Below are positions 787-36,912 of a stretch of 37,308 bases of DNA, piece by piece (the first letter of the stretch is position 1; each line of letters begins with the position of its first letter). Source of the stretch: Rhodospirillaceae bacterium (GTDB lineage: Bacteria; Pseudomonadota; Alphaproteobacteria; CACIAM-22H2); the NCBI GenBank assembly GCA_022843945.1, contig JALHMR010000045.1:1-37308 (forward strand), read 5' to 3'. The notes below the pieces were generated by a model, which was not told the DNA's origin, did no database searches, and saw only the letters and a program-made list of their open reading frames with translations. The position numbers and the translations under genes were made by a program.

Positions 787-805
787 CGGGCGGATCGCTG
801 ACCCC

Positions 806-1327
806 ATGATGCGCAGCGACGGGTCCGAGCCGGACAGCCATTTCTATCGCCCCAATGTGGGCGCCATGCTGTTCAACCGGCAGGGCCTGGTCTTCGTCGG
901 CCAGCGCAACGACCTCAACGACATCGAGAAGGACTCCGGCTCGTGGCAGATGCCGCAGGGCGGTATCGACGAGGGCGAGGATCCGCGCAATGCAGTCCTG
1001 CGCGAGCTCAAGGAGGAGACCGGCACCGACAAGGCCGAGGTCGTGGCCGAGACAAAAGGCTGGTTCCGCTACGACATCCCCTCGATCGTCACCGGCAAGC
1101 TCTGGCACGGCAAGTACAAGGGCCAGCGCCAGAAGTGGTTCGCCCTGCGCTTCCTCGGCACGGATGCCGACATCGACATCGCTTCCCACAACCCGGAGTT
1201 CTCGGCCTGGAAATGGGCGCCGCTCGAAGACCTGCCGGCGCTGATCATCCCCTTCAAGCGCGAGGTCTACACGGCGGTGGTAGCCGAGCTGGGGCCGGCG
1301 GTACGCGCCGCGGCCAAGCGCGTTTAG
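806..1327 (+). CDS. rppH: RNA pyrophosphohydrolase (Nudix hydrolase) RppH
   Basis: 173-aa cytosolic Nudix hydrolase. RppH removes pyrophosphate from 5'-triphosphorylated RNA, which opens mRNA to RNase E-type decay; plant and alphaproteobacterial relatives also cleave dinucleoside polyphosphates. The N-terminal YRPNVGAMLFN strand is diagnostic of the RppH/IalA group. The Nudix box runs over about residues 52-74 (G52, E58, R66-E67, E70-E71, G73) and contains the metal-binding REL-EE core. WQMPQGGI before the box and FKREVY near the end are further family signatures. ATG codons stand at 806 and 809; the ribosome-binding site is weak (GGGCGG about 10 bases upstream), so the exact start is uncertain. 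It follows the deacetylase closely, an arrangement common in Alphaproteobacteria. Its stop overlaps the end of the opposite-strand gene by four bases. Confidence 0.95.
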   Translation: MMRSDGSEPDSHFYRPNVGAMLFNRQGLVFVGQRNDLNDIEKDSGSWQMPQGGIDEGEDPRNAVLRELKEETGTDKAEVVAETKGWFRYDIPSIVTGKLWHGKYKGQRQKWFALRFLGTDADIDIASHNPEFSAWKWAPLEDLPALIIPFKREVYTAVVAELGPAVRAAAKRV

Positions 1328-1740
1328 TCGTACTGCGGAATCCGCACTGCGACGTTTTTCCCGGATTCCACGCACAGCGTCTCCTCCGGTGCCGCCGGCC
1401 GGTTGCCGCGGAAGCAGACCTCGAAGTCGCCATGCAGCACGGCGGTCGGATTGGCGCGCAGGCTGTAGAACAGCGCCGACGGCATGGCGCGCTGGCCGGT
1501 GACCGGCCACCAGCGGGCGGTCGAGGAATACTCGGTGGAGAAGGCCAGGGTGCCGTCGAGGGTCCTCACATAGACCACCGCGTCATCGAAGACGCGGCAT
1601 TCGCGGATTTCGGGGGCGCCTTTGCAGACGGGTTCGGCTGTTGCGGTGCTGCTCACGGCCAACAGCGCGATGGCGGCCACCCCCCACCCTAGCCCTCCCC
1701 CACGAGGGGGGAGGGGATAAGAGAAGGAAGCGCGCCTCAT
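1324..1740 (-). CDS. Small secreted protein of unknown function
   Basis: I do not recognise a family. From ATG 1740 the product is about 138 residues: a basic start (MRRASF), a Pro/Gly-rich stretch, then a hydrophobic segment (VAAIALLAV) and a small-residue cleavage region (SSTATA). This reads as a signal peptide, so a periplasmic product of about 100 residues is expected. The mature part has four Cys (in VCKG, IRECR, EVCFR and TLCVES), possibly forming disulfides. In-frame ATGs also occur at 1746 and 1752; the one at 1746 overlaps the TGA of the upstream 71-aa gene (ATGA), which suggests translational coupling. The Pro/Gly-rich stretch is encoded by a palindromic intergenic-type repeat, which appears to have inserted into the gene start. 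The 3' end is convergent with rppH. Existence as a gene is likely; function unknown. Confidence 0.6.
   Translation of the reverse strand: MRRASFSYPLPPRGGGLGWGVAAIALLAVSSTATAEPVCKGAPEIRECRVFDDAVVYVRTLDGTLAFSTEYSSTARWWPVTGQRAMPSALFYSLRANPTAVLHGDFEVCFRGNRPAAPEETLCVESGKNVAVRIPQYD
1680..1720. repeat. G/C-run palindromic repeat inside the signal-peptide coding region
   Basis: Contains an 8-bp stem, CCCTCCCC at 1693-1700 pairing with GGGGAGGG at 1708-1715, flanked by CCCCACCCTAG. Read on the minus strand it encodes the peptide SYPLPPRGGGLGWG, a typical translation product of this dispersed alphaproteobacterial repeat type. It differs in sequence from the longer repeats at 34086 and 34480. Confidence 0.7.
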
Positions 1741-1742
1741 AA

Positions 1743-1958
1743 TCATTGCCATTCAATGAGCCACCCTGCCTCTCGAAAAAATTTCTCGAGTTCAGGTGCA
1801 TCTTTTACCCAGTTATCGTGTCCGGGACTCATCGAGCGGTTTTTCGATGTCAAGATCAAGAACCCGCCAGTGTCTTCCGATTTCACAACTTTGACGAATG
1901 TTCCAGATCCATCGCCGGCTAGAACCAACCCAATTTCATTTAGTGGAATTGTTCCCAC
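1743..1958 (-). CDS. Small hypothetical protein, 71 aa
   Basis: GTG-initiated frame ending in TGA at 1743-1745. The translation has ordinary protein composition (IGLVLAGDGSG, FLILTSKNRS, LEKFFREAGWLIEW), unlike the Arg/Ala/Pro-rich shadow frames nearby. It also sits in a locally AT-richer patch (about 1740-1965), suggesting different ancestry from its flanks. It begins 8 bases after the stop of the ferritin-like gene and its stop overlaps an ATG of the next gene, so the three minus-strand genes could be co-transcribed. There is no signal peptide or membrane segment. It could also be the remnant of a longer gene, because its start has no good ribosome-binding site. I do not recognise the family. 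Confidence 0.5.
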   Translation of the reverse strand: MGTIPLNEIGLVLAGDGSGTFVKVVKSEDTGGFLILTSKNRSMSPGHDNWVKDAPELEKFFREAGWLIEWQ

Positions 1959-1966
1959 GTCACTTT

Positions 1967-2782
1967 TCAGGCGCCGGCCTTGGCGAGGCTGGCGACGCGG
2001 GCGCGCATGATCCAGCCGACGGCGCGCGACAGCCAGCCGTGCAGGCGGCCCTGCGGCGACAGGCCGACGGCCTTCATCGCCATGGCGATGCCGCGCTCGA
2101 CATGGTGCGGGCGGTAGACGCTGTAGGCCCGCCTGGCATAGGCGCGGCTGTTAGGCTTGCGCACATAAGCCTCGCGGCTGCCATTGGCCGCCCAGTAGGC
2201 GCAGGCCAGCTCGTCATCCTCGGATTCGAGGATGCGCCCCAGACCGGTGCGCAGCCGCCCCCAGAAGCCGAGCTTCTCGACGCCGAGGTAGCGTTCCATG
2301 TGGCCGTAGAAGAGCTTGTAATGACGCAGCTCGTCAGCGGCGATCTTGCGGCAGACCTGCTGCAGCACCGGCTCGGCGCTCGCCTCGGCGAGCGCCGTGT
2401 AATAGGAGCTCGTCCCCGTCTCGACGATGCAGCGCGCGATCAGCTCGGCACAGCGCGAGCCGCGCACAGAGTCCGTCGCGTCGAGCGGCAGCTTGAAGGT
2501 CTCAGTGAAGCGCCTGAAGCTGGCCTCGAAATCCCAGGCGGGATCGGCCAGCTGGGCCCAGCGCTTGAGCGCCTGGCCGTGCTGCACCTCTTCCAGGGCC
2601 CAGGCATCGGCGGCGCGCTGGAACTCGCGATCACCGGCGAAGACGTTATTGAGATAGACGGCGTAGTCGGCACCGTTCTGCTCGACCATCGAGGCCGCCT
2701 TGACGATGCACAACAGCTCCGGATCGACCTTCGCAGGCTCGAACCGGTCCCAGGCGATGTCGTCGAGGGTCCAGTGTTTCAT
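1967..2782 (-). CDS. Ferritin-like diiron domain protein
   Basis: 271-aa soluble, mostly helical protein. A complete set of class I diiron ligands can be picked out: E34, E64 or E65 with H68 (EEVQH), E121 (ETGTSSYY), then E151 with H154 (DELRH). This two-fold E...ExxH pattern is that of the ferritin/ribonucleotide-reductase-like superfamily, including acyl-ACP desaturase relatives. The reaction is not determined; oxidation, hydroxylation or iron handling are all possible. The C-terminal 100 residues are basic and may form an extra helical domain. It starts with ATG at 2782, 86 bases downstream of atpC on the same strand. I see no convincing terminator between them, so read-through from the atp operon is possible. 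Its stop is followed after 8 bases by the 71-aa gene. Confidence 0.8.
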   Translation of the reverse strand: MKHWTLDDIAWDRFEPAKVDPELLCIVKAASMVEQNGADYAVYLNNVFAGDREFQRAADAWALEEVQHGQALKRWAQLADPAWDFEASFRRFTETFKLPLDATDSVRGSRCAELIARCIVETGTSSYYTALAEASAEPVLQQVCRKIAADELRHYKLFYGHMERYLGVEKLGFWGRLRTGLGRILESEDDELACAYWAANGSREAYVRKPNSRAYARRAYSVYRPHHVERGIAMAMKAVGLSPQGRLHGWLSRAVGWIMRARVASLAKAGA

Positions 2783-2868
2783 CGGGTAAGGCCTTACAGT
2801 ACCACGATGATATGGCGCCTAACCCCGTCGGGATTCAAGCCTGAAGGGTTAAGCAGCGGGCCCCGGCC

Positions 2869-3270
2869 TCAGGCCGCGGCGGCGAGCTTGGCTTCGAGGA
2901 CCTCGACCCGGGCCGCGAGCTTCTCGCGGGCCGCGTCGTCATTGGCGGCGGCCATCTCGGTGCGCACGGCATCGAGCTGCGACTGCACGGCGCCCTTGTC
3001 GATCTCCTTGACCGGCGTCGCCTCGTCGGCGAGCACGGTGCAGCGCTCGCCGGTCACCTCGGCGAAACCGCCGGCGACGAAGATCTGCTCGACGACCTGG
3101 CCGCCCTCGTGGATCTCGATGGTGCCCGGGCGCACGGTAGAGATCATCGGCGCGTGATCCGGCAGCACGCCGAAATCACCTTCGGAACCCGGCACGACGA
3201 CCATCTCGACCGCGCGGCTGACGAGCAACCGCTCGGGCGAAACCAGTTCGAACTGCACCTTGTCGGCCAT
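2869..3270 (-). CDS. atpC: ATP synthase F1 subunit epsilon
   Basis: 133 aa, the usual length. The N-terminal beta-sandwich carries family signatures: VQFELVSPERLL, then VVVPGSEGDFGVLPDHAPMIS and FVAGGFAEV. The C-terminal part is a helical hairpin rich in Ala/Lys/Glu (AREKLAARVEVLEAKLAA). Epsilon connects the rotor shaft (gamma) to the c-ring and can inhibit ATP hydrolysis. It is the last gene of atpHAGDC and follows atpD by 25 bases. The product works at the cytosolic face of the inner membrane as part of F1. Confidence 0.97.
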   Translation of the reverse strand: MADKVQFELVSPERLLVSRAVEMVVVPGSEGDFGVLPDHAPMISTVRPGTIEIHEGGQVVEQIFVAGGFAEVTGERCTVLADEATPVKEIDKGAVQSQLDAVRTEMAAANDDAAREKLAARVEVLEAKLAAAA

Positions 3271-3295
3271 CGGCGTACCCTAACCTTCTGTCTGC

Positions 3296-4750
<1,455 letters not shown>

Positions 4751-5635
4751 CTAGATCGCTTCCGCGCCGGAGATGATCTCGATCAGCTCCTTGGTAATCG
4801 TGGCCTGGCGGGTGCGGTTGTACTGGAGGGTCAGTCGCTTGATCATGTCGCCGGCGTTGCGCGTGGCGTTGTCCATCGCGCTCATCCGGGCGCCCTGCTC
4901 GGACGCCGAGTTCTCGAGCAGCGCGCGATAGACCTGGATGGCCAGGTTGCGCGGCAGCAATTCGCTCAGGATGTCGCCCTCGTCGGGCTCGAACTCGTAG
5001 ATGGCGCCGCTCTCGTTGGCGGCGGCAGGCTCAGCGCCCACTTCGACCGGGAACGGAATGAGCTGCTGCTTGGTCGGGATCTGGCTGATCGCCGACTTGA
5101 AGCGGTTGTAGAACAGGGTCGCGACGTCGAACTCGCCGGCGGCGAAGAGCGCCAGGATGCGGTCGGCGACGCGCTGGGCGTCGGCGAAGGACAGCCGCTT
5201 CTTGCCCACCTCGTCGATCGTCTCGGTGATGTTCTTGGCGAAGTCGCGGCGCAGCTGGTCGCGGCCCTTCCGGCCGACGCACAGGATCTTGACCGTCTTG
5301 CCCTCGGTGAGCAGCTGGCGGATGAACCCCCGCGCCGCGCGCACGATCGAGGAGTTGAAGGCGCCGCACAGGCCGCGATCCGAGGTGGCGACGATGACCA
5401 GGTGCACCTTGTCGGCACCCGTGCCCCCGAGAAGCGTCGGGCCGTCGCTGCTGGTGGCGCCGCCGGCGAGCGAGCCGAGCATGCGGCTCATCCGCTCGGC
5501 GTAGGGCCGGGCGGCGACCGCCTGTTCCTGGGCGCGGCGGAACTTGGCCGCGGCGACCATCTTCATCGCGGACGTGATCTTCTGCGTCGACTTGACGCTG
5601 GCGATCCGGACGCGGAACGTCTTAAGGCTGGGCAT
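4751..5635 (-). CDS. atpG: ATP synthase F1 subunit gamma
   Basis: 294 aa, normal length. Gamma is the central rotor stalk inside the alpha3-beta3 head. Both ends, which form the coiled-coil shaft, are well conserved: [20 protein letters not shown] followed by [16 protein letters not shown] at the N-terminus, and [20 protein letters not shown] with [20 protein letters not shown] at the C-terminus. The middle Rossmann-like part has [12 protein letters not shown]. It lies between atpA (38 bases upstream) and atpD (18 bases downstream) in the same operon. Confidence 0.98.
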
Positions 5636-5673
5636 GGGGCTTGGGCCGCCCTTTTCTCGTTACGCGGGCCGGA

Positions 5674-7203
<1,530 letters not shown>

Positions 7204-7206
7204 TGA

Positions 7207-7764
7207 TCAGACGCCCTTCATCGCGAGTTGTAGCCGTTGCAGTTTGGAGGCGAGCGAGGCGTCGATCAGGCGCGAGCCGACCTTCACCTTGAGCCCGCCG
7301 AGAAGCCGGGGATCGACGTTGAGCTGCACCGAGACCTTCTTGCCGACCGCGGCGCGCAGCGCGTTGCCGACGGCGTCGGCCTGCGGCGTCGAGAGCTGCT
7401 TGGCCGAGGTCACCTCGGCGATGATCTCGCCGCGATGGGCGGCGAGCAGGGCCGTGAAGCCGTCGATGATCGAGGTGAGGCTGGCCAGGCGGCGGTTGCG
7501 CGCCACCATGCCGACGAAGCGCCGGGTGAGATCGGAGAGACCCGCCTTCTCGACCAGCGCCAGCACGGCCTTGGACTGCTGGTCGCGCGGGATCAGCGGC
7601 GAGGTGATCAGGCGGCGCAGGTCGGCACTGTCGGCAACCAGCGCCTTGAGGGTCTTGAGATCGGCGGCCACGGCATCGAGGGCTTTCGCCTCGTCCGCCA
7701 GCTCATAGAGCGCGGTCGCGTAGCGGCCGGCGAGGCCGGTCAGGTGGTGAGACTCAGAAGCCAC
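7207..7764 (-). CDS. atpH: ATP synthase F1 subunit delta
   Basis: 185 aa, usual length. Delta (the mitochondrial OSCP equivalent) caps F1 and joins it to the peripheral stalk. The N-terminal helical bundle has LAGRYATALYELADEAKALD; the C-terminal segment has the family signature VDPRLLGGLKVKVGSRLIDASL. The start is a GTG at 7764 with a GAGGA ribosome-binding-like sequence about 11 bases upstream. It is the first gene of atpHAGDC, and the F0 genes (a, c, b, b') are absent from the window, as is normal for Alphaproteobacteria, where they form a separate operon. Confidence 0.97.
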   Translation of the reverse strand: MASESHHLTGLAGRYATALYELADEAKALDAVAADLKTLKALVADSADLRRLITSPLIPRDQQSKAVLALVEKAGLSDLTRRFVGMVARNRRLASLTSIIDGFTALLAAHRGEIIAEVTSAKQLSTPQADAVGNALRAAVGKKVSVQLNVDPRLLGGLKVKVGSRLIDASLASKLQRLQLAMKGV

Positions 7765-7875
7765 GATGGGACGCGGTCCTCAGGCAGCGGGCCGGAGAGC
7801 AGGAGCTCTGAAACCCTTGATGAAACAAACAAAACCTCGCGCCGCGGAGCGTGGCCCCCGGCTAAGGACGGCGGA

Positions 7876-7904
7876 TTGCTACCACAGCGAATTGGGCGAT
7901 GCAA
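7876..7904 (-). promoter_or_regulatory. Candidate promoter of the atp operon
   Basis: In the 172-base gap between priA and atpH, the minus strand reads TTGCAT, 17 bases, then TAGCAA. The -35 is a fair sigma70 match and the spacing is ideal, but the -10 is poor. It lies about 110 bases upstream of the atpH GTG. A small 5-bp hairpin (AGAGC/GCTCT, 7797-7810) lies in the leader. Inferred by eye only. Confidence 0.3.
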
Positions 7905-7936
7905 CACGCCGGCACGCGCCGAAAAGCGCAGCAGAA

Positions 7937-10183
7937 TCAAAGGAAAGAATAGGGGTCGATATCCACCTGTAGGCGCACGTTCGACGGCACGCGAATCCCG
8001 CTCAGCCACGAGTCGATGGCGGCCTGGAGGTTCGCCTCGCGCGACGCCTTGACCAGCAGCCGGCGGCGGTGCCGGCCGCGCAGGATCGACAGCGGCGCCG
8101 GCGCCGGTCCCAGGGTTTCGATGCCGTTTCCCGAGGGGGCCGAGCGGCCGAGATCGCGGGCCACGCGGTCGACCACGGCCACGTCCGGTCCCGCTACCAC
8201 GATGGCGGCGAGCCGGCCGAAAGGCGGCCAGCCGTGGCGCCGGCGCTCCTCCGCCTCGGTCTGCAGGAAACGGTCGCGGGCCTCCGGGGCGCGGGACAGG
8301 GCGACCAGCGCCTGCATCACCGGATGCTCGGGCATATAGGTCTGCAGCAGAGCCCGGCCCGGGCGCTCGGCCCGCCCCGCCCGGCCCGCCACCTGGTGCA
8401 GGAGCTGATAGGTGCGCTCCGCCGCCCGCAGGTCGCCGCCGGCCAGGCCTAAGTCGGCATCGACCACGCCGACCAGGGTGAGGCGCGGGAAATGGTGGCC
8501 CTTGGCCACGATCTGGGTGCCGACCAGGAGATCGATCTCGCTGCCGGCCATGCGGCTGAGGAAATCCTCGGCCGCGCGCGGGCCGGTCATGGTGTCGCTG
8601 GTGACGATGGCGGTGCGGGCCTGCGGGAACAGCGCCACCGCCTCCTCCGCCACACGCTCCACCCCCGGCCCACAGGGCACGAAACTGTCGTCGTCCCCGC
8701 ACGAGGGGCAGGCGCGCGGCACGGGGGCGGTATAGCCACAATGATGGCATTGCAGCTTGCCGGTGCGCCGGTGCTCGACCAGCCAGGCCGTGCAGGCGGG
8801 GCAGTTCAGCCGGTGGCCGCAGGTCCGGCACAAAGTGAGCGGGGCGTAGCCGCGGCGATTGAGAAAGAGCATCGCCTGCTCGCCGCGCGCGAGCGTCTCG
8901 GCCACCGCCTCGCGCAGCTTCGGTGAGAGGAAGGTGTTGCGCGGCGGCGGCGCCTTGCGCAGGTCGATGGTCTGGATCTCCGGCAGGGAGGCACCGGCAT
9001 GGCGGTCGGCCAGATGCACCGATGTGTAGCGCCCGCGCTCAACATTGATCACCGTCTCGAGTGAGGGCGTCGCCGAGACCAGCACCGCCGGCACCGCGGC
9101 GTGGCGCGCCCGCACCACCGCCATGTCGCGCGCGTGATAGATGACGCCGTCCTCCTGCTTGAAGGCCGCCTCGTGCTCCTCGTCGACCACGATAAGACCC
9201 AGCTTGGCGAAGGGCAGGAACAGCGCCGAGCGGGCGCCGACGATCACCGGCAGCGTGCCCTCGGCAACTTCGCGCCAGGTGCGCCGGCGCTGGGCCAGCG
9301 AAATCTCCGAATGCCAGACCGCCGGCGGGGCGCCGAAGCGCTGCTCGAAACGGGACAGCCACTGAGCACCGAGCGCGATTTCCGGCAGGAGGACCAGCGA
9401 CTGCTTGCCGGCACGGATATTGGCGGCGATCGCCTCGAAATAGACTTCCGTCTTGCCGGAGCCGGTGACGCCGTCCACCAGAGTCACGGAAAATCCCTGC
9501 CCCAGCCGGCCGACCAGCGCCTCGGCGGCGGCGCGCTGCTCGGCGGAGAGGTCCGGGCCCTTCTGCGCGCCGTCGGGCCAGAGCGCGCGCGGCTTCGCCA
9601 CCTCGACCATCTCGATCCAGCCCATATCGACCAGGCCGCGCACCACGCCGGGACCGACAGCGGCGGCGAGCGCCAGCTCGGCCAGCGGTCGCGGCGGTCC
9701 GGTGCCCAGCTCGCGCAGCACGCGGCGGCGCGCCGCCGTCAGGCGCAGCTCGCCGGGATCGGTCGTGTCGGGATGCGGCGCCGCCTCCGACAGGCGGCAG
9801 GCGAGCACCGGGCGCGGCAGGTCGAACGCCTCGGGCACGCTCATGGCCATGCGCAGCACCGCGCCGGGTGGCGAGAGCGTATAGGCCGACACCCAGTCGA
9901 TGAAGCGCCGCATCTCCGCCGGCAGCGGCGGCACGGCACGCCGTCCGATGACATCGCGGAGCTTGGCCTCGGCGACCGGCTCTCCTGCCTTCTTCTCCGG
10001 ATCCCAGACCACGCCGATCGCCCGGCGGCGGCCCAGCGGCACGTCGACGAAATCCCCGGGCTTCAGCCCGAGCTCGGGATCGGCGCGGTAGTCGTAGGCC
10101 CCGGCCAGCGGCAAGGGCAGCAAAACACGCAGGCGCAAAGCGCTGCTTTCGCCGGGCGGTTTGCTGGTTTCGGGGGTAGGCAT
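7937..10183 (-). CDS. priA: Primosomal replication restart helicase PriA
   Basis: 748 aa, normal length. PriA recognises stalled forks and D-loops, unwinds the lagging arm 3' to 5' and reloads the replicative helicase. The N-terminal DNA-binding domain includes [15 protein letters not shown]. The helicase core has the P-loop GVTGSGKTE (about 238-246) and the DEEH box (334-337). Eight zinc-ligand cysteines are present (C452, C455, C461, C464, C479, C482, C492, C495), followed by [12 protein letters not shown] and the AGRAGR motif. ATG at 10183. It sits 172 bases upstream of atpH on the same strand and is divergent from fsa, with 90 bases between their starts. Confidence 0.98.
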
Positions 10184-25676: not shown

Positions 25677-26717
25677 TTACTTCGGTGCCGCCTTGCCCTC
25701 GTAGCGCTTGGACCATTCGGCCAGGATCCGGTCGCGCTGGGTGGCCATGAAGTTGAAGTCCATCTTGGTCATCGCGGCGGGTGCGGTGGGCGGATAGCCG
25801 GCTGGCAGCCCGCTCAGGTCCTTATGCGCCACGACGGCGTAGTACTTGATGTACATCTCGCTCGCCTTCTTGGTGACGCTCCAGTCGACGAGGCGCTGCG
25901 CGGCGGCGAGATTCTTCGTGCCCTTGACGATCGCCGTGGCTTCGAGATCCCACGCCAGGCCTTCCTTGGGCACGATGAGCTCGAGCGGAGCGCCTTGCGC
26001 CTTCTCGCGCACGCCGCGCATGTCGAGGCCGATGCCCACCATGCGCTCGCCGCGCGCCGCCTGAACGCAAGGGGCGGAGCCCGAATGCAGGTAGTTGGCG
26101 ATGTTCTCGTGCAGCCTGTCCATGAAGGCCCAGGCTTGCGCCTCGCCCATCGCCTGGATCCAGCTCACCACCTGCATGTAGCCGGTGCCGGAGGAGGCCG
26201 GATGCGGCATGACGATGCTGTTCTTGAATTTGGGATCGGTCAGATCCTGCCACGAGGCGGGTGTGGGCGCGCCGGCCTTCTTCTGCTCCACCGTGTTGAG
26301 GCAGACGAGCGCCAGGAAGGCCTCGACCGCGGTGTAGTTCATCGGCTCCGTCGCGGCCTTGAGCTGCGGCTTGATGTCGGCCGCGCCCTTGGGCGTGTAG
26401 CGATGCACGATGCCGGCATTGTCGAAGATCAGGATGCTGGTGGCCGCAAGGCCCCAGATGATGTCGGCGCGGGGGTTGTCCTTCTCGGCCAGCACGCGGG
26501 CGGTGATGACGCCCGTGGAATCGCGCACCCAGGCGATCTCGACATCGGGGTTGTCCGCCTCGAAGGCCTGCTTGTAGGGCTGGAGCTGGTCGTTCTCCAG
26601 CGCCGTGTAGACCGTCAGGCGCGTCTTCTGCGCCTGCGCCTCGCCTGCCCCACCGATCGTCAGGGCCGCCGCCATCGCCAGCGCTCCGGCCGTCCAGCTC
26701 AATTGCCGCCTGTTCAT
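25677..26717 (-). CDS. Periplasmic ABC-transporter binding protein, 2-aminoethylphosphonate-type family
   Basis: 346 aa from ATG 26717, with AGGGG eight bases upstream. Signal peptide: MNRRQLSWTAG then AMAAALTIGGAGEAQA. The mature protein starts TRLTVYTALENDQL and has RDSTGVITARVLAEKDNPRA, DIIWGLAATS, MPHPASSGTGYMQV, ANYLHSGSAPCVQAARGE and WDLEATAIVKGTKN. From memory these match the family called putative 2-aminoethylphosphonate binding protein (PhnS2/AepX-like, within the iron/polyamine-type group); the true ligand is untested. It is an orphan: no permease or ATPase gene is in the window and a strong terminator follows. It is divergent from the TIM-barrel/G1P dehydrogenase/DeoR genes and shares their palindromic promoter region, which suggests common regulation and a phosphorylated or phosphonate ligand. 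Confidence 0.8.
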   Translation of the reverse strand: MNRRQLSWTAGALAMAAALTIGGAGEAQAQKTRLTVYTALENDQLQPYKQAFEADNPDVEIAWVRDSTGVITARVLAEKDNPRADIIWGLAATSILIFDNAGIVHRYTPKGAADIKPQLKAATEPMNYTAVEAFLALVCLNTVEQKKAGAPTPASWQDLTDPKFKNSIVMPHPASSGTGYMQVVSWIQAMGEAQAWAFMDRLHENIANYLHSGSAPCVQAARGERMVGIGLDMRGVREKAQGAPLELIVPKEGLAWDLEATAIVKGTKNLAAAQRLVDWSVTKKASEMYIKYYAVVAHKDLSGLPAGYPPTAPAAMTKMDFNFMATQRDRILAEWSKRYEGKAAPK

Positions 26718-26795
26718 GGATTTTCCCCTTTCGCCGTCCGCCCGGGCCCCGTCCCGCTGACGAGGCCGCCGGAAACCCCGGCCTTGGAGAAATAG

Positions 26796-26821
26796 TTTGC
26801 ATATGCAAAATAGATTTTGCA
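26796..26821. promoter_or_regulatory. Overlapping palindromic operator, candidate DeoR site
   Basis: Two perfect inverted repeats overlap: TTTGCATATGCAAA at 26796-26809, and TGCAAAA-TAGA-TTTTGCA at 26804-26821. Together they give three TTTGCA/TGCAAA half-sites in a divergent promoter otherwise made of GC-rich DNA. The right part covers the -35 of the rightward promoter, the position expected for a repressor site. The DeoR protein encoded at 28934 is the obvious candidate; this link is inferred from location. Confidence 0.7.
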
Positions 26822-26845
26822 ACTCCAACATTGGCTTTTTATACT
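26817..26845 (+). promoter_or_regulatory. Sigma70-type promoter for the TIM-barrel/G1PDH/deoR operon
   Basis: TTGCAA (26817-26822), exactly 17 bases, then TATACT (26840-26845). The start codon of the first gene is about 50 bases downstream at 26897. The -35 lies inside the right-hand palindrome. Confidence 0.6.
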
Positions 26846-26896
26846 CGGAATGGGACGCCGGCGCCCGGGTTAAGGCGCGGGACCCGGGGAGACGCC

Positions 26897-27583
26897 ATGG
26901 ACTTCATCTTCATGCTGACCCGCGATGATCGCACGATCGAGGACGCGCTTGCCGTGCTCGACGACGCGGTGGCGGTGGGCCTGCGCCATATCGGCTTCAA
27001 GGACATCGGCGCGACACCCGAGACCTTGCGCGAGCTCACCAGGCGCATTCGCGAGGCCGGCGCCACCAGCTACATGGAGGTGGTCAGCACCAGCCGCGCC
27101 GCGGCGCTGCATTCGGCGGCCATCGCGGCCGAGATCGGCGTCGACCGCCTGCTCGGCGGCACCGAGGTCGAGGCCACCCTGCAGGTGCTCGACGGCACCC
27201 GCACCGACTACTTCCCCTTCCCCGGCTTTCCCGAGGGACACCCGACCAAGCTCGGCGGCTCGGCGCTGGAGATCGCCGCTCACTGCACCTCCTATCTGGG
27301 CAAGGGCTGCCGCGGCGTCGACCTGCTCGCCTACCGGGCCACGGCCGCCGATCCGCTGGAGCTGGTGCGCGCCGCGCGCAACGCCCTCGGCCAGCGCGGC
27401 GAGCTCATCGTCGCCGGCAGCGTCAATTCCTTCGAGCGTATCGAGGCCCTGCGCGCCGCCGGCGCCGATGCCTTCACCATCGGTTCGGCGATCTTCGACG
27501 GCTCGCTATCCCCGCGCGCCGGCACACTGCGCGCCCGGCTCGAAGCCGTGGTCGCCGCCTGCGAAGGCCGCGCGGCGGCCTGA
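26897..27583 (+). CDS. TIM-barrel protein with phosphate-binding-type C-terminal loops, unknown reaction
   Basis: 228 aa from ATG 26897 (GGGGAG six bases upstream); an open extension to 26831 would run across the promoter. The pattern of alternating strands and helices is that of a (beta/alpha)8 barrel. Residues worth note: K35 and D36 (FKDIGATPE), E61 (YMEVVSTS), the GGTEVEATLQVL turn, and two late loops, VAGSVNS (172-178) and IGSAIF (195-200), placed like the phosphate-gripping loops of HisA/TrpF/NanE-type and glyceryl-phosphate synthase barrels. I do not recognise a named family. Five bases separate it from the G1P dehydrogenase gene, so its substrate is probably the same metabolite or the next one. 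A synthase for prenylglyceryl phosphate, an aldolase or an epimerase are all conceivable. Confidence 0.8.
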   Translation: MDFIFMLTRDDRTIEDALAVLDDAVAVGLRHIGFKDIGATPETLRELTRRIREAGATSYMEVVSTSRAAALHSAAIAAEIGVDRLLGGTEVEATLQVLDGTRTDYFPFPGFPEGHPTKLGGSALEIAAHCTSYLGKGCRGVDLLAYRATAADPLELVRAARNALGQRGELIVAGSVNSFERIEALRAAGADAFTIGSAIFDGSLSPRAGTLRARLEAVVAACEGRAAA

Positions 27584-27588
27584 TCATC

Positions 27589-28893
27589 ATGACCAAAGGC
27601 GATGACACGCTGAGCCGGGTGCTGGCCGGCCGCTTCCCCGATCCCGACTCCGCGGGCATGCTGCAGGTCGCCACGCGCCACGTGGTCATCGGCCCGTCAC
27701 TCGCCGCCCGCGCGCCCGACCTGCTGCGCGCTTCAGGCCTCACCGGCCAGCGGCTGGCCGTGGTCAGCGATCCCGAGACCCAGCGCGTGCTCGGCGCGCG
27801 GGTCGAGCTGGCGCTCGCCGGCCAGACGCGTATCGACCGGATCGTGCTCGGCTCGAACCCGCATCCCGACGAGGCCAGCGTCGAGCGCGTGCGCACCGCC
27901 GCGGCAGCCTGCGATGCGCTGGTCGCCGTCGGCTCTGGCACGGTCAACGACATCGTCAAGCTGGCCGCCTTCCAGCTCGGCAAGCCCTACGCCGTGTTCG
28001 GCACCGCGCCCTCGATGAACGGCTACACCTCGCCGACCGCGGCGATCACCGTGCACGGCCACAAGAAGTCGCTGCCGGCGGCGGCGGCGCTGGGCGTGTT
28101 CCTCGACACGGGCGTGCTGGCCGCGGCACCGGCGCGCATGATCCGCGCCGGACTGGGCGACAGCCTGTGCCGCTGCACCGCGCAAGCCGACTGGCTGCTC
28201 GCCCACCTGCTGCGCGGCGAGCCCTACCGCGAGGCGCCGTTCACCCTGCTCAAGGAGGACGAGGACGCGCTGCTCGCCGCCCCCGAGGCGCTGCTGAACG
28301 GCGACCGCGCGGCGATGGAGCGGCTGGCGCGCACGCTCATCCTCTCGGGCTTCGGCATGGCGATCTGCGGCAACAGCAAGCCGGCGAGCCAGGGCGAGCA
28401 CCTGATCAGCCACTATGCCGACATGCTGGCGCGCCCGGACTGGCAGCAGAACTTGCACGGCGAGCAGATCGCGGTGACCACCCTGACCATGGCGCGGCTG
28501 CAGCAGCGGGCGCTGACCGAGCCCGCCCCCCAGCTGCGGCCCGCCCCGGCCAAGGCCGAGGAGTTCCGCGCCCATTTCGGCGCCGAGCTCGGCGACACCT
28601 GCTACGCCGAGTTCACCCGCAAGCAGCCCGACGCGGCTGCCACCGAGGCGATCAACCGGCGCCTGGCCGCCGACTGGCCGGCGATCCAGGCGCGCATCGC
28701 CGCCATCAGCCGCCCCGCCCAGCAGCTCCACGACATCCTGCGCCGGGCCGGCGCCCCGACCACGCCGGCCGATCTCGGCTGGCCCGACCGTTTCTACCGC
28801 GACGCGGTGCGCCACGCCCGCGAGATCCGCGACCGCTGGACCTTCCTCGATTTCGCCGCCGACATCGGCACCCTCGCCAAGGCGGCGGCCTGA
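27589..28893 (+). CDS. sn-Glycerol-1-phosphate dehydrogenase-like protein (iron-ADH superfamily)
   Basis: 434 aa. The family interconverts dihydroxyacetone phosphate and sn-glycerol-1-phosphate; archaea use it to make lipids and Bacillus AraM is a bacterial member. The nucleotide site is GSGTVNDIVK (115-124), then TAPSMNGYTSP (139-149). Three metal ligands are in place: D191 (AGLGDSL), H271 (PASQGEHLISHYADM) and H290 (NLHGEQIAV). It is longer than AraM by about 40 residues, with a distinct C-terminal part (last 120 residues). No PcrB/heptaprenylglyceryl phosphate synthase gene is nearby, and the DeoR partner and binding protein favour catabolism of glycerol-1-phosphate or a similar phosphorylated polyol over lipid synthesis. 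It starts five bases after the TIM-barrel gene and lacks a clear ribosome-binding site, so coupling is likely. Confidence 0.85.
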   Translation: MTKGDDTLSRVLAGRFPDPDSAGMLQVATRHVVIGPSLAARAPDLLRASGLTGQRLAVVSDPETQRVLGARVELALAGQTRIDRIVLGSNPHPDEASVERVRTAAAACDALVAVGSGTVNDIVKLAAFQLGKPYAVFGTAPSMNGYTSPTAAITVHGHKKSLPAAAALGVFLDTGVLAAAPARMIRAGLGDSLCRCTAQADWLLAHLLRGEPYREAPFTLLKEDEDALLAAPEALLNGDRAAMERLARTLILSGFGMAICGNSKPASQGEHLISHYADMLARPDWQQNLHGEQIAVTTLTMARLQQRALTEPAPQLRPAPAKAEEFRAHFGAELGDTCYAEFTRKQPDAAATEAINRRLAADWPAIQARIAAISRPAQQLHDILRRAGAPTTPADLGWPDRFYRDAVRHAREIRDRWTFLDFAADIGTLAKAAA

Positions 28894-28933
28894 TCGGTTC
28901 ATCCGGGTCCGGCAATGGCGTAAGGTCCCCGGC

Positions 28934-29731
28934 ATGAAGGCCCCCGCCAAGACTGGGACGATTCGCCTGTCGGCCGACGAGCGCCACGCCCGCATCCTGC
29001 GGGATCTCAGGCTCAACCCGGCGCTGCGCGTCGCGCACCTGGCCAAGGCCTTCGGCGTCACCACCGAGACCATCCGCCGCGACCTCGATGCGCTGGGCGC
29101 CGACGGCAGGCTGGCCCGTACCTATGGCGGCGCCGCCGCCGCTCCCGGCGAGCGCGAGCCGGCGCTGCACGAACGCCAGCACCTTCGTGTCGCGGAACGC
29201 AACCGCATCGGGGGGCGTGCCGCCGCGTTGATCAAACCGGGCGACGTCCTGATGATCGATTCGGGCTCGACGACTCTCCATTTCGCCCGCCACCTCGCAT
29301 CCCGGCTCAAGAACCTGACGGTGATCACCAACTCACCCGCCATCGCCGCGACGCTCGGCGTCAACGGCACCATGAAGATCATCCTCTGCCCGGGCGAATA
29401 CGATACCTTCGAGGGTGGCGTATTCGGGGTCCATACGGTGGAGTTCCTCAAGCAGTGGCACGCCGATCGCACGCTCATCGGGGCGAGCGGCATGAGCATC
29501 GGGGGCCCGAGCGAGGCGATTTCAGACGCCGTTCACATCAAGCGCGCCATGATGGCCCAGGCCAAGCGGTCGACGCTGCTGGCCGATGCGACGAAGTTCG
29601 ACCAGCGGCACCTCGAGCTCATCCACCCATGGCACTTGGTCGACGAGGTCGTGGTCGATCAGAAGCCGCCTCCACCCCTGGCGGAGGCGCTGCGTGAAGC
29701 CGACGTGAAAGTTCTTGTCGCGCCGGCGTGA
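28934..29731 (+). CDS. DeoR/GlpR family transcriptional regulator
   Basis: 265 aa. DeoR-type winged helix: RHARILRDLRLNPALRVAHL, then AFGVTTETIRRDLDALGADG and RTYGGA. The sensor domain has GDVLMIDSGSTTLHFARHL, NLTVITNSPAIAATL and DRTLIGASGMS, the fold that binds sugar or polyol phosphates. A ribosome-binding site AAGGT is seven bases before ATG. It is the third gene after the G1P dehydrogenase (40-base gap) and most likely represses the divergent promoter at 26796-26845 until a phosphorylated inducer binds. The final residues VKVLVAPA complete the domain; nothing is truncated. Confidence 0.93.
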   Translation: MKAPAKTGTIRLSADERHARILRDLRLNPALRVAHLAKAFGVTTETIRRDLDALGADGRLARTYGGAAAAPGEREPALHERQHLRVAERNRIGGRAAALIKPGDVLMIDSGSTTLHFARHLASRLKNLTVITNSPAIAATLGVNGTMKIILCPGEYDTFEGGVFGVHTVEFLKQWHADRTLIGASGMSIGGPSEAISDAVHIKRAMMAQAKRSTLLADATKFDQRHLELIHPWHLVDEVVVDQKPPPPLAEALREADVKVLVAPA

Positions 29732-29892: not shown

Positions 29893-30705
29893 ATGGCGTC
29901 AGCGGCGATTCGACTGCGGCTCAAGTTCGAGCCGGAGGTTGGCCAATTTCCCGGCCTTGACCACTACCATGGCGCCAAGACGCAGCTAGGCTACGCGAAG
30001 CTTCTTCGCATCCTAATTAACTTCATTTTGAAACAAGAGATCAGAAAGAAAGCAACCGCCGTCGACGGATTCGAGATTCGGTTTGGCCTGTCGAGACATG
30101 GAAGCCTCGTACAAGATCTCTACCTCTACGCTACACAACCAGAAATCCAAGAGGCGTTAAGAGCCTTAGGTCAAAATGCACTTTACGATCTTTTAAAATG
30201 GGGATTTGGCGGCCTAGTAGCGGGAGCAACCGCAGTTATTACAAAAAATCGTCAAGCGAATAAGAAAATCGCTGCCTTGTCACGCGATGTCGCCGAATTA
30301 AAGAAAGTCCTAGAGCCAGCCCTGAAGGAAGCTCATTCATCGGTTCGCGAGCAGGGCATCAAATCATCCCTCTACCTAAAAAGCCGAAAGCTTTATGAGT
30401 TCAACCAAATCTCACTTCGTCGGATCGAAGGCGTGCGGCCCGAGCCGAATACAGAAGTTGTCGAGGTCCATATCAGCAAGCTCAACGGCCGGACAGGTAC
30501 GGGCCGATTAGTCTTTGAGCCCCAAGGCCGGTCGTATTCCTTTTATCCGGCCACAGAACTTACTGGTGAAGAGATGGCTATTTTAGCCGACAACCTCAAT
30601 AAGTACGTAAACGAGACATTTGTGAAAGTAAAATTGAAGGTACGTAAGTTCACCACGGCCGCCGGCAAGCTTGCATTCTATGATCTGTATAGCGTCAGCC
30701 GGTGA
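29893..30705 (+). CDS. Unrecognised protein with hydrophobic segment and coiled coil (accessory island)
   Basis: 270 aa with AGGGG six bases before ATG. N-terminal domain (1-80): strands IRLRLKFEP and GFEIRFGLSRHGSLVQDLYL around a helix. Then a short hydrophobic glycine-rich segment (LLKWGFGGLVAGATAVI, about 100-116), a likely coiled coil (ANKKIAALSRDVAELKKVLEPA, about 122-145) and a beta-rich C-terminal domain (ISKLNGRTGTGRLVFE, VKVKLKVRKF). The general shape recalls uncharacterised DUF7946-type proteins, from memory and not verified. Codon use and base composition are clearly more AT-rich than the flanks. It converges on the SIR2 gene with 27 bases between stops. The 161 bases upstream are also AT-richer and contain a TATGAT (29849-29854) but no clear -35. 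Function unknown; a membrane-associated sensor or effector is a guess. Confidence 0.7.
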   Translation: MASAAIRLRLKFEPEVGQFPGLDHYHGAKTQLGYAKLLRILINFILKQEIRKKATAVDGFEIRFGLSRHGSLVQDLYLYATQPEIQEALRALGQNALYDLLKWGFGGLVAGATAVITKNRQANKKIAALSRDVAELKKVLEPALKEAHSSVREQGIKSSLYLKSRKLYEFNQISLRRIEGVRPEPNTEVVEVHISKLNGRTGTGRLVFEPQGRSYSFYPATELTGEEMAILADNLNKYVNETFVKVKLKVRKFTTAAGKLAFYDLYSVSR

Positions 30706-30732
30706 TCACACAGATATTCTCGGCGATCTAGC

Positions 30733-31803
30733 CTAGCGAACGTACGCCGAAAGGCCTCCTGCTGTTATCGTTACGCTTCGCGCGCCAAATAGCGCCTTGT
30801 ACCGATCAGCTGCGGGACCCGCACCCTTAACGATGACTTCAATCTTCTTTTTTTCATGTCCCCTTTGGTCGAGCTTCAACTGGCACGACTTCAATAGATG
30901 CTTAAATTCGTAGTCTGCTTCCGGCAGCGAGTATCCGACAAATATCCAGTCCTTTGCAGATGACAGCATCTGCTCTGCAGCAAGCCATGCGTTGCTGAAA
31001 GCGTGCGTCCGAAACGACTTCTTAAAGCTGAATGTAGCTATGTGAGGACCAACGGCCGAACTACAGATCGGACAATCTCGTTCCCCCGGCGCGATCCCAA
31101 GGGCACGATTGAATTCCGCACCTCGAAAATCTGCTTCAAATAGCCGGAAGTCAGATCGAATCAAGCCAGCCTGGATATTCAGTGATAGCTTCTTATACCG
31201 GTCAAAGAAGACAGCCCGACAGTTATCACAGTAGACCCAGTTACTTGACCCATGAACTTTCGCGATCTTGATGGCACTAGCTTCGTCGTCAAACAAAGCT
31301 GAACTGCGCCAGATGTAACTCGAAACGCAGTAGCTAACGGGACGACTCGGCGCAAGCTCTTCCAAGTGTCGCTCTAGAACGATGTCCCAATTGAGGACGA
31401 TGAAACCAACCGGGCTGGGAGAGTCGCATACGCCGACCTTGTGAAGAAATTTCTTTATGTCCGAAGAAACGTGAAAGCGAGCATCGAGGATCTGAAAGGT
31501 GCGGAAGATTAACATCCGCCTCAGAGCACGCAGTTTCTTGGGAGTAAATGTTAGACCGAAATTGTGCCCGCTTCCCGCAGACAAATCGATCATTGTGAAC
31601 ATGTCTTCCAATGAAGGTAGGGCATCCCCTTCTTTCCAATGAAAACATTGAGCGAGATATTCCCGAATTGCTTTCGTGATCCGCTGATCTATGGCGCTGA
31701 CAAAGTTTGTGCCTAGCAATTGAGATGAGAACTCTGCCTGGGTGGGTAAGCCGGCATTCACAGAGAACCCGGCGCCGAGAACAATTGCTGTCTTAACCGA
31801 CAT
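30733..31803 (-). CDS. SIR2-family protein with zinc-ribbon cysteines
   Basis: 356 aa from ATG 31803 (GAGGG six bases upstream; a TTG at 31824 is also open). NAD-binding GAGFS is at residues 10-14 with the N-A-G-L-P continuation; LNWDIVLE (N138, D140) and the catalytic-type histidine H184 in KVHGSSNW follow. Four cysteines, C192/C195 (YCDNC) and C244/C247 (CPIC), form a likely zinc site. IFVGYSLPEADYEF (288-300) is the closing Rossmann motif of the SIR2_2-like group. These proteins are sirtuin-fold NAD-consuming enzymes; several are NADase effectors of phage defence (Thoeris ThsA, DSR, SIR2-Argonaute). No Argonaute, HerA or TIR partner is nearby; only the convergent 270-aa gene. AT-rich codon use marks it as foreign. 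Confidence 0.85.
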   Translation of the reverse strand: MSVKTAIVLGAGFSVNAGLPTQAEFSSQLLGTNFVSAIDQRITKAIREYLAQCFHWKEGDALPSLEDMFTMIDLSAGSGHNFGLTFTPKKLRALRRMLIFRTFQILDARFHVSSDIKKFLHKVGVCDSPSPVGFIVLNWDIVLERHLEELAPSRPVSYCVSSYIWRSSALFDDEASAIKIAKVHGSSNWVYCDNCRAVFFDRYKKLSLNIQAGLIRSDFRLFEADFRGAEFNRALGIAPGERDCPICSSAVGPHIATFSFKKSFRTHAFSNAWLAAEQMLSSAKDWIFVGYSLPEADYEFKHLLKSCQLKLDQRGHEKKKIEVIVKGAGPAADRYKALFGARSVTITAGGLSAYVR

Positions 31804-31880
31804 TCCCCACCCTCTTGTGCGCAATCTAACAGTCGAGCCTCGCGGAAAGGATACTTTCGGCCGTCAGTTGCTTGGCCGGA

Positions 31881-34620: not shown

Positions 34621-35982
34621 CTACTCCGCCGCCGCTCGTGCCGTGCCGCGGAACATTGTCTCCATCTCGCGGCGCAGGCGCACGGCGTCGAGCGTCTCGT
34701 CGGCCTGCACGTCGGCCCAGCGCACCGGCTGGCCGGCCTTCACGGGGTTGAGCAGCTTGACCTTGTGGGCGAGGCCGAGCGGCAAGGCGCCGATGCGCAA
34801 GGACTCCGCCGCCGGCAGCAGCTTGCCGACCACGGTGTAGCCGCCCTCGCCGTCGAGCATCTCGCCGGCTTTGAGGTCGCGCTTGGCGCTGGCCACCGCG
34901 TCGGCGCGGAAGCCGTCGGCGCAGCCGGTCGGCTCGCCCCGGATGCCGACCGAGGCGACCGAGACGCCGAGTTCCAGCCCGATCAGGTGCCAACGCTTGT
35001 ACATGGCGGCGTAGCGGCCCGACGGATCGGTCACCAGCCCGTACTCGCTGAAGCAGCGGCGCACATATTCGGTGTCGCCTTCGAAACAGACGAACACGCC
35101 CCAGCGGATGTTGTGCGGGATCGGCCGACCGTCGCGCTCGAGCGACGAGAGCACCTCGACCTGGCCCTTGCTGTGGAGCTGGCCGCCTTCGGATTTCGGC
35201 CGGCAGACGAAGGGGATGTCCTCGAGGCTGGCGGGCGGATATTCGAGGCCGTTGGGCGGCGGCACCAGGCCGGCGGCATTGCACACCGCCGTGCTCTCGA
35301 TCGCCGGCTTCGAGCCGTCGAGAAACGAATTGAACATCTGCGGATTGAGGCCGCCAAGCTTCGCCTGCTCGGCCGACAGCCCCCAGTGGTTCCACACCGT
35401 CTCCGGTGTGGACTGCGCGTAATGCGGCAGCCATTTATGGCCACGACCCGCACTCACCACGTCGAAGCCGGCGGCGCGCGCCCAGTCGACCAGGTCGCAG
35501 ATCAGCGCCGGCTGATCGCCGTAAGCCAGCGAATAGACCACGCCAGCTTCCGCTGCCTTGCGCGCCAGCACCGGGCCGCAGAAGGCATCGGCCTCCACCG
35601 TCACCATGACCACGTGCTTCTTGGCGGCGAAGGCCCACAGCGCGTGGGTGACGGCGGCCGGCGGATGACCGGTGACTTCGACAATGATCTCCACGGCCGG
35701 ATGCTTGATCAGCGCTTCGGCGTTGTCGGTGATGTGGGTGCCGCCGCTCTTGGCCGCGTCGTCCAGCGACTTGGCCCCGATGCGCGCCGCATCCCAGCCG
35801 GTCTTGGCGAGCGCCTCGCGCGCCCGGTCCGGCGAAAGATCGGCCAGGCCGACGAGATGGATGCCCGGCGTGCGGCGCGCTTGCGCCAGGTACATGGTGC
35901 CGAATTTGCCCGCCCCGATGATGCCGATGCGCAACGGCTTGCCGGCGGCCTGGCGCTCGAGGAGTTTGCGATGAAGGTTCAT
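34621..35982 (-). CDS. NAD(P)-dependent oxidoreductase with C-terminal SAF domain
   Basis: 453 aa. An N-terminal Rossmann domain (LRIGIIGAGKFGTMYLAQ, residues 18-35; LVGLADLSPDRAREAL) resembles homoserine dehydrogenase. A middle catalytic part has EVTGHPPAA, VTVEADAFCGPVLARKA and the DLVDWARAAGFDVVSAGRG turn. A C-terminal SAF-like part (about 365-430: KAGEMLDGEGGYTVVG, LPLGLAHKVKLLNPVKAGQP) follows. Relatives act in carbohydrate-acid or branched sugar catabolism, but the substrate is unknown here. AGAAGG ribosome-binding site seven bases before ATG. Its neighbours, a PhyH dioxygenase, tautomerase and GntR regulator, suggest oxidation of a small carbon source. Confidence 0.82.
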   Translation of the reverse strand: MNLHRKLLERQAAGKPLRIGIIGAGKFGTMYLAQARRTPGIHLVGLADLSPDRAREALAKTGWDAARIGAKSLDDAAKSGGTHITDNAEALIKHPAVEIIVEVTGHPPAAVTHALWAFAAKKHVVMVTVEADAFCGPVLARKAAEAGVVYSLAYGDQPALICDLVDWARAAGFDVVSAGRGHKWLPHYAQSTPETVWNHWGLSAEQAKLGGLNPQMFNSFLDGSKPAIESTAVCNAAGLVPPPNGLEYPPASLEDIPFVCRPKSEGGQLHSKGQVEVLSSLERDGRPIPHNIRWGVFVCFEGDTEYVRRCFSEYGLVTDPSGRYAAMYKRWHLIGLELGVSVASVGIRGEPTGCADGFRADAVASAKRDLKAGEMLDGEGGYTVVGKLLPAAESLRIGALPLGLAHKVKLLNPVKAGQPVRWADVQADETLDAVRLRREMETMFRGTARAAAE

Positions 35983-36004
35983 GAGCGTCGCCTTCTCTCA
36001 TTTT

Positions 36005-36090
36005 GTCATGCCCGGGCGAAGCGCAGCGCAGACCCGGGCATCCATCGCACCGTCGGCACAATGGACCCCCGGGTCAAGCCCGGGGGTGAC
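36005..36090 (-). repeat. Two-hairpin intergenic repeat, copy 2 (GTCACCC...GGGCATGAC family)
   Basis: 86 bases, read on the minus strand. The first hairpin is CCCCGGG-CTTGA-CCCGGGG and the second ATGCCCGGGTC...CGCCCGGGCAT, with a longer loop than copy 1 at 13946. Shared blocks include GGGCTTGACCC, GATGGATGCCCGGGTC and CCCGGGCATGAC. It fills the PhyH-oxidoreductase gap. Confidence 0.85.
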
Positions 36091-36108
36091 ACATTAAATA
36101 CTGTCGGT

Positions 36109-36912
36109 TCACTCCGCCGCGCTCTGCCGGCGCGCTCCGGTCAGCAGGCAGTCGTCGGGCAGCATGTCGATCGGCGTGAAGTCGTGGTTGGCGATCCAGG
36201 TCGGCCGCTTGAAGCGGCGGATGGCGTTGTCGCAGCGGTTGAGCGACAGGTAGACGATCCAGCGCGACCACGGCGTCAGGTTCGAGCCCGAGGCGTGGAC
36301 CAGGGTGCCGTGGAACAGCAGCACCGACCCGGGCGGACCCTTGGGCGCCACGATGCCCCCTTCCTTCACCAGCCGCGTGATGGTCTCGTTGTCGATGGTC
36401 CATAGCGGATAGCTGGTGGTGGTGACGTCATGCCCGGCCTGCAATCGGCCGCGGCGATGGCTCTTGGGAATGAACATCAGCGGACCGTTGAACTCGTTGG
36501 CCTCGGCGAGGAACAAAGCGATGTTCATGGCCCGCGGGGTCGGCATCTGGTCGTCCTCGAACCAGGTGCCGTAATCCTGATGCCACTGCCACACCGCGCC
36601 GTCGAAGGCCGCCTTGGCGTTGATCTTGAACTGATGCATGTAGAGCTTGTCGGAGCCGAGGATCTGCATGCCCGGCTCGACCAGGCGCGGATGGCGCGCC
36701 AGGCGCTCGTAGACCGGGTTCCAGGTCTGGACGTAGAAAGCCGAGCGCGGCGCGTCGGTGCCCTTTTCGCGGATCACCTCCTCGCGCTTGGTGGCCAGGA
36801 TACCCGGCACCTCGGCGTTGAGGATGTCCATCTCCTGCGGCGAAAAGACATTGGGCAGGAACAGGTAGCCCTGCTCCTCGAATTCACGCAGCTGGTCGGC
36901 GGTGAGTTTCAT
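36109..36912 (-). CDS. Phytanoyl-CoA dioxygenase (PhyH) family protein
   Basis: 267 aa, ATG 36912 with GAGGGAGA upstream. Non-heme iron(II) and 2-oxoglutarate-dependent hydroxylase fold. The iron ligands can be assigned: H111 and D113 in WQWHQDYGTW, and H206 in LVHASGSNLTP; R217 (PWSRW) would hold 2-oxoglutarate. N-terminal FEEQGYLFLPNVFSPQEMD is the usual family start, and the length is typical. The substrate is unknown; bacterial relatives hydroxylate ectoine, amino acids and many small molecules. The gene starts 12 bases after the stop of the GntR regulator, so it is probably regulated by it and co-transcribed with it. Confidence 0.88.
   Translation of the reverse strand: MKLTADQLREFEEQGYLFLPNVFSPQEMDILNAEVPGILATKREEVIREKGTDAPRSAFYVQTWNPVYERLARHPRLVEPGMQILGSDKLYMHQFKINAKAAFDGAVWQWHQDYGTWFEDDQMPTPRAMNIALFLAEANEFNGPLMFIPKSHRRGRLQAGHDVTTTSYPLWTIDNETITRLVKEGGIVAPKGPPGSVLLFHGTLVHASGSNLTPWSRWIVYLSLNRCDNAIRRFKRPTWIANHDFTPIDMLPDDCLLTGARRQSAAE

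Follow-up and report, generated by a model that had tools for sequence, protein, structure and literature searches.

What does a small divergent gene cluster do that pairs a predicted sn-glycerol-1-phosphate dehydrogenase with an enzyme of no named family? The cluster occupies positions 25677 to 29731 of a 37,308-nucleotide stretch of DNA (hereafter the window), contig JALHMR010000045.1 of Rhodospirillaceae bacterium (assembly GCA_022843945.1). Genes for a TIM-barrel enzyme, the dehydrogenase and a DeoR-type repressor form a single operon, divergent from the gene for a PhnS2-type binding protein. A first-pass annotation of the letters had proposed that the cell imports a glycerol-phosphate or phosphonate compound and oxidises sn-glycerol-1-phosphate (G1P), the enantiomer of archaeal lipids, to dihydroxyacetone phosphate (DHAP). 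That interpretation as a whole is partly supported by the analysis described here. The module is real and conserved well above chance, and is apparently an undescribed, catabolic one; its gene content, the co-occurrence of barrel and dehydrogenase, and the exchange of the dehydrogenase for other DHAP-forming partners are established. We tentatively propose, with slightly less than even confidence, that it serves the DeoR-controlled catabolism of G1P or of a very similar phosphoester. The features of the cluster are as follows.

25677..26717, minus strand: PhnS2-family periplasmic substrate-binding protein (putative 2-aminoethylphosphonate type), from its match to TIGR03261
26796..26821, no strand: two overlapping palindromes, candidate DeoR operator, from a palindrome search
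26817..26845, plus strand: promoter-like site of the operon, TTGCAA-17-TATACT, from a promoter scan
26897..27583, plus strand: TIM-barrel enzyme of an unnamed family, 228 aa, from its AlphaFold fold and its relatives
27589..28893, plus strand: sn-glycerol-1-phosphate dehydrogenase-like protein (Fe-ADH_2), from Pfam, NCBIfam and PDB matches
28934..29731, plus strand: DeoR/GlpR-type repressor, from its HTH_DeoR and DeoRC domains

All four reading frames lie where the first-pass annotation had placed them, and it also gave the intergenic distances within the operon correctly, at 5 and 40 bases. Conservation of the N-terminus MDFIFMLT among relatives of the barrel leads us to start this gene at ATG 26897 in preference to TTG 26831 further upstream. 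Since the string is also one of the six patterns used to search for barrels, selection accounts in part for its invariance among the loci retrieved. For the binding protein ATG 26717 is the most likely start, which gives 346 aa with a signal peptide-like N-terminus, as against an open reading frame of 384 aa.

The strongest evidence that these genes work together comes from their conservation. A scan of 84,980 species genomes with the six patterns returned at least 76 barrel loci, of which 75 were analysed. Among the matches listed, a dehydrogenase lies within 6 kb of the barrel in 32 of the 75, and near these 32 we see DeoR (22 loci), FGGY kinase (20), HAD-IIB phosphatase (15) and GlpD (3). 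Regulators related to the window DeoR, mostly 41–49% identical, are present in most of the linked clusters listed. A second and independent set of 289 alphaproteobacterial genomes, in which a barrel was scored as a full-length match above 200 bits and a close dehydrogenase as one of more than 50% identity, contains the barrel in 24 genomes and the close dehydrogenase in nine, all nine of which also have the barrel; in six of them the two genes are on one contig within about 3 kb. The hypergeometric P for this co-occurrence is 3.8e-11, or 4.6e-10 excluding the window genome, values that are too small because the genomes are related and not independent. Within the window's own family the barrel occurs in 5/5 genomes with the dehydrogenase and in 0/4 tested without it, and the two are sometimes unlinked. 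The neighbourhood search thus finds barrel, dehydrogenase and DeoR kept together, as the first-pass annotation had supposed. We found no description of this cluster, or of the DUF1537-PdxA2-barrel set considered below, in the open-licence literature.

The dehydrogenase matches Fe-ADH_2 (PF13685, 116 bits), and its best matches in the PDB are G1P dehydrogenases (9h4x, E 3e-42; 4rgq, 7e-30). Glycerol dehydrogenases in the PDB start at 2e-10, with the exception of 3ce9 (3e-26), a ‘glycerol dehydrogenase’ entry that sits within the G1P dehydrogenase-like group, and by sequence the window enzyme is closer to G1P dehydrogenase than to glycerol dehydrogenase. The metal-binding residues D191, H271 and H290 are intact, are shared by no fewer than 31 of the 32 dehydrogenase-family sequences, and align with the metal residues of 4rgq and 9h4x. 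Family and metal site together lead us to infer a G1P dehydrogenase-like protein that would act on G1P. Its Fe-ADH_2 membership, metal triad and best PDB matches are shared with AraM and the archaeal G1P dehydrogenases (EgsA; 4rgq, 9h4x), from which it differs in falling below the archaeal equivalog cut-off, in having no PcrB beside it and in lying within a catabolic, DeoR-linked cluster.

Related dehydrogenases, 39–42% identical, are also present on plasmids of Shinella, Acidiphilium, Agrobacterium and Rhizobium (L137-L141), in annotated clusters with the order FGGY, SorC-type regulator, G1P dehydrogenase, HAD-IIB, GlpD and sugar ABC transporter, some of which also carry SDR and aldolase genes. 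GlpD is common to these and to barrel clusters, and the HAD-IIB proteins of the rhizobial and Acidiphilium plasmids are 54–59% identical to those of barrel clusters, whereas the barrel gene is missing and a ‘sugar-binding transcriptional regulator’ takes the place of DeoR. We found no characterisation of these clusters in the open-licence literature, and they look like another undescribed plasmid pathway for a polyol or glycerol phosphate. Their existence implies that dehydrogenase, HAD-IIB and GlpD are a recurrent set of their own, which the barrel accompanies in one branch only.

The barrel itself matches no Pfam or NCBIfam family above cut-off. Sequence profiles relate it to known barrels in the phosphate-binding C-terminal third only, where it carries the standard beta7/beta8 phosphate-binding motif. 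The AlphaFold model is a complete TIM barrel (mean pLDDT 95.6) whose nearest folds are 3-hexulose-6-phosphate synthase (HPS), PdxJ, ribulose-phosphate 3-epimerase (Rpe), KDPGal aldolase and OMPDC, and these differ little (Z 18–21). As they score alike and the profile matches are limited to the shared phosphate motif, the fold leaves the chemistry undecided, and we rejected an assignment on that basis. Invariant residues include D2, T8, D11, T13, K35, E61, D142 and R147, together with G174 and G196 of the phosphate site; H115 is nearly so. Two named families were tried and rejected: PcrB/GGGP synthase (TIGR01768, 16.4 bits against a cut-off of 113.25; PRK04169, 16.8 against 247) and triosephosphate isomerase (TPI), whose model PF00121 gives no match. 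The barrel cannot be a simple substitute for a missing TPI, as a canonical TPI is present in 10/10 genomes tested, eight of them barrel-bearing, and the window genome has one separate, normal TPI at C17.

The barrel family spans Proteobacteria, Actinomycetota and others, and some of its members are arranged differently. In two PdxA2 clusters it is associated with a cupin, annotated in Mesorhizobium as part of a protein of about 354 aa (L091:7995-9059, an apparent fusion) and in Gluconobacter followed by a separate cupin gene (L089:7989-9044). In Staphylococcus warneri, a plasmid-borne distant relative (30%; L095:7992-8654) diverges from a gene whose annotation reads YqeG-type HAD phosphatase / VanW-like.

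The partners of the barrel are more informative about its substrate. The same strongly supported barrel clade (100*) that holds dehydrogenase-linked members also includes actinobacterial members placed after PdxA2, and in most of these a D-threonate-kinase-like protein precedes PdxA2. On rhizobial, Gemmobacter and Roseateles plasmids, barrels that are more distantly related come third, after kinase and PdxA2, and on a Gluconobacter plasmid the barrel comes after PdxA alone. Among the barrel loci listed there is no case of PdxA2 and the dehydrogenase together. GlpD, which makes DHAP from glycerol-3-phosphate, accompanies or replaces the dehydrogenase in L006, L008, L036, L043 and L074, and in L006 and L036 it is present with no dehydrogenase near the barrel. 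DHAP or a ketone 1-phosphate is the established product of G1P dehydrogenase, of GlpD, of PdxA2 acting with its kinase, and of class II aldolases such as FucA. Because DHAP formation is what these exchangeable partners have in common, it is simplest to suppose that the barrel works on DHAP itself or on a similar ketone phosphate; the first-pass annotation had left its step open, just before or after the dehydrogenase. A close parallel is the DUF1537 kinase-PdxA2 pathway for D-threonate and D-erythronate, whose product is DHAP and which has a barrel relative as its third gene; it employs an acid-sugar kinase and an oxidative decarboxylase where the window has a G1P dehydrogenase. A further branch (L055, L057, L047 and L020, at about 600–8000) has a conserved PotABCD-like transporter, an SDR and an isochorismatase-family hydrolase divergent from barrel and dehydrogenase, which suggests that this branch uses an amide-containing substrate.

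A plausible pathway would begin in the periplasm, where the PhnS2-type protein would bind a small phosphorylated compound and pass it to a PhnT2-U2 ABC transporter encoded elsewhere in the genome. The Fe-ADH_2 enzyme would then oxidise G1P to DHAP with NAD(P), and the barrel, acting through enediolate chemistry as an isomerase, an epimerase or an aldolase, would convert the resulting ketone phosphate of the DHAP type. In this way G1P scavenged from sources such as membrane lipids would probably enter central metabolism. The DeoR protein would repress the operon until bound by a phosphorylated intermediate, acting at palindromes that cover the -35 box. Two such palindromes overlap each other, TTTGCATATGCAAA at 26796-26809 (with up to two mismatches allowed, chance predicts 0) and TGCAAAATAGATTTTGCA at 26804-26821, and together they overlap the -35 box of TTGCAA-17-TATACT. 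This is the sole promoter-like site in the divergent region, seen there as two overlapping hits against 0.2 expected; the scan of the region found no minus-strand promoter for the binding protein. The regulator matches both HTH_DeoR and DeoRC, which places it in the DeoR/GlpR family. Palindromes are present in several of the clusters compared, with no single motif common to all.

The binding protein connects the module to organophosphorus compounds. It exceeds the cut-off of the phnS2 model TIGR03261 (441.7 bits against 392.75), which bears out the resemblance to the 2-aminoethylphosphonate (2-AEP) family seen in the first pass and is the point of likeness to the putative 2-AEP transporter PhnS2-PhnT2-PhnU2. 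Its nearest matches in the PDB are 4r72 (an iron-type binding protein entry, which we take to be the hexose-phosphate binder AfuA), 8x1a and 6wce (PLP-binding P5PA). It is 64% identical to a PhnS2 of its own genome (G000) at C7 and 66% identical to the PhnS2 of relatives; a third PhnS2 of the genome is at C55. The earlier term ‘orphan’ holds locally, as no ABC transporter genes adjoin it, but not for the genome, where a complete phnS2-T2-U2 set at C7 could provide ATPase and permease. Judged by its sequence, the protein is a detached paralogue from this transporter. The operon at C7 (41861-46473; L083) ends in a HAD-IA phosphatase-like gene, not a phosphonatase, and has the same layout in the relatives G297 and G305; the 2-AEP name of the transporter family may be wrong there.

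Elsewhere, a sister clade of PhnS2-like proteins (349–367 bits) adjoins the barrel-dehydrogenase pair in L028, L046, L048 and L053, and a PhnU2 permease does so in L033, so that PhnS2-type transporters have joined such modules at least two times. An FGGY kinase is present in 1/5 of the Phn-linked loci against 19/27 of the other dehydrogenase-linked loci listed (Fisher p 0.053), which no more than suggests a link to transporter type; few such kinases would be expected if the substrate arrives already phosphorylated. L002 and L042 carry PehA/PMH-type phosphoester hydrolases near the barrel-dehydrogenase pair, as does L123 near the dehydrogenase; these enzymes are related to phosphodiesterases and to phosphonate monoester hydrolases. 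With GlpD, these transporters and hydrolases of sister clusters back the proposed phosphorylated ligand.

It is possible, if on balance doubtful, that the binding protein is just a neighbour and that barrel, dehydrogenase and DeoR are the functional unit. Its nearest relatives are ordinary PhnS2 proteins of phnS2-T2-U2-HAD operons within the same bacterial family, it has no transporter of its own alongside, and most barrel-dehydrogenase clusters use other transporters. Against this, the genes diverge about one operator region in a layout identical to that of L046, and in four other genomes the pair is accompanied by PhnS2-like proteins of the separate sister clade.

The main rival to G1P catabolism, which we consider somewhat unlikely, is that the dehydrogenase oxidises a larger polyol phosphate (C4–C6) at C2 to a ketose 1-phosphate, which the barrel epimerises or cleaves, with G1P as a side substrate. 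The xylulokinase-like FGGY kinases in 20 of the 32 dehydrogenase-linked loci listed point in this direction, as do FucA-type class II aldolases in L002, L019, L028 and L123, sugar-type ABC transporters in several clusters, and Rpe, HPS and KDPGal aldolase among the nearest folds. However, the window has neither kinase nor aldolase, and the FGGY proteins of its genome are GlpK and one just 26% identical to the cluster kinase. The GlpD of several clusters indicates glycerol phosphate itself, and the PdxA2 partners make DHAP too.

Import and degradation of a phosphonate, either 2-AEP or glyceryl phosphonate, is improbable, notwithstanding the PhnS2 equivalog match and five other barrel loci that have a transporter of PhnS2 type or the corresponding permease. 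Neither PhnJ nor, above cut-off, PhnX turned up in the window genome (PhnW/PhnY/PhnA and PhnY*/PhnZ were not searched), its resident phnS2-T2-U2 operon does not end in a phosphonatase, as noted above, and no enzyme that cleaves a C-P bond was recognised among the linked clusters. The window protein differs in this setting, as well as in its separation from ATPase and permease, from a 2-AEP transporter component. The phosphonate half of the first-pass idea therefore finds no backing from PhnJ or PhnX, and a glycerol-phosphate ester is the likelier ligand. Synthesis of G1P from DHAP for archaeal-type ether lipids, in the manner of AraM-PcrB, has the family of the dehydrogenase in its favour but is very improbable, given the low scores of the barrel on both GGGP-synthase models, the importers, kinases, phosphatases and repressors of the clusters, which fit catabolism, and a window that, as the first-pass annotation had remarked, holds no PcrB partner.

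Several observations nevertheless weigh against catabolism of G1P as proposed here. The dehydrogenase reaches 196.1 bits on the NCBIfam model for archaeal NAD(P)-dependent G1P dehydrogenase, whose cut-off is 413, and we accordingly class it as a related enzyme and not as an archaeal EgsA. The normal TPI of the genome would make another DHAP isomerase redundant, the placement of the window barrel in the tree is weakly supported, and the FGGY kinases and FucA-type aldolases of sister clusters suggest that larger polyols or ketoses are sometimes used. The importers described for G1P also belong to other families. According to a paper in PNAS of December 2025 (PMC12718374), marine bacteria can import G1P, by way of GpxB and UgpB, and use it for growth, as seen in Phaeobacter. 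The importers GpxBCD and UgpBACE share with the window module the proposed role in bacterial G1P uptake. Their binding proteins are assigned in that paper to the PhnT (3.A.1.9) and CUT1 families, whereas the one in the window is a PhnS2/SBP_bac_6 protein.

Two other gene pairs of the window lie downstream of the cluster. At 29893-31824 a 270-aa protein without a Pfam match adjoins a convergent SIR2-like protein, possibly as a defence pair (PADLOC gives weak SIR2 hits only). At 34621-36912, on the minus strand, a DRL_cat/SAF-domain oxidoreductase adjoins a PhyH-type dioxygenase, possibly as a small catabolic operon.

Bacterial uptake of G1P was shown only in 2025, and in the main text of that paper we found, under catabolic and dehydrogenase terms, no enzyme described or named for its breakdown (PMC12718374). 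The candidate operon would connect G1P derived from archaeal lipids or phosphatidylglycerol with central carbon flow. More speculatively, and with some doubt, it may represent a widespread, undescribed route of bacterial G1P breakdown in which an unnamed enzyme family carries out a new step on DHAP or a DHAP analogue, fed alternatively by G1P dehydrogenase, by GlpD or by a four-carbon-acid kinase with PdxA2. The partners of the barrel narrow its substrate, and assigning one member could assign the family everywhere.

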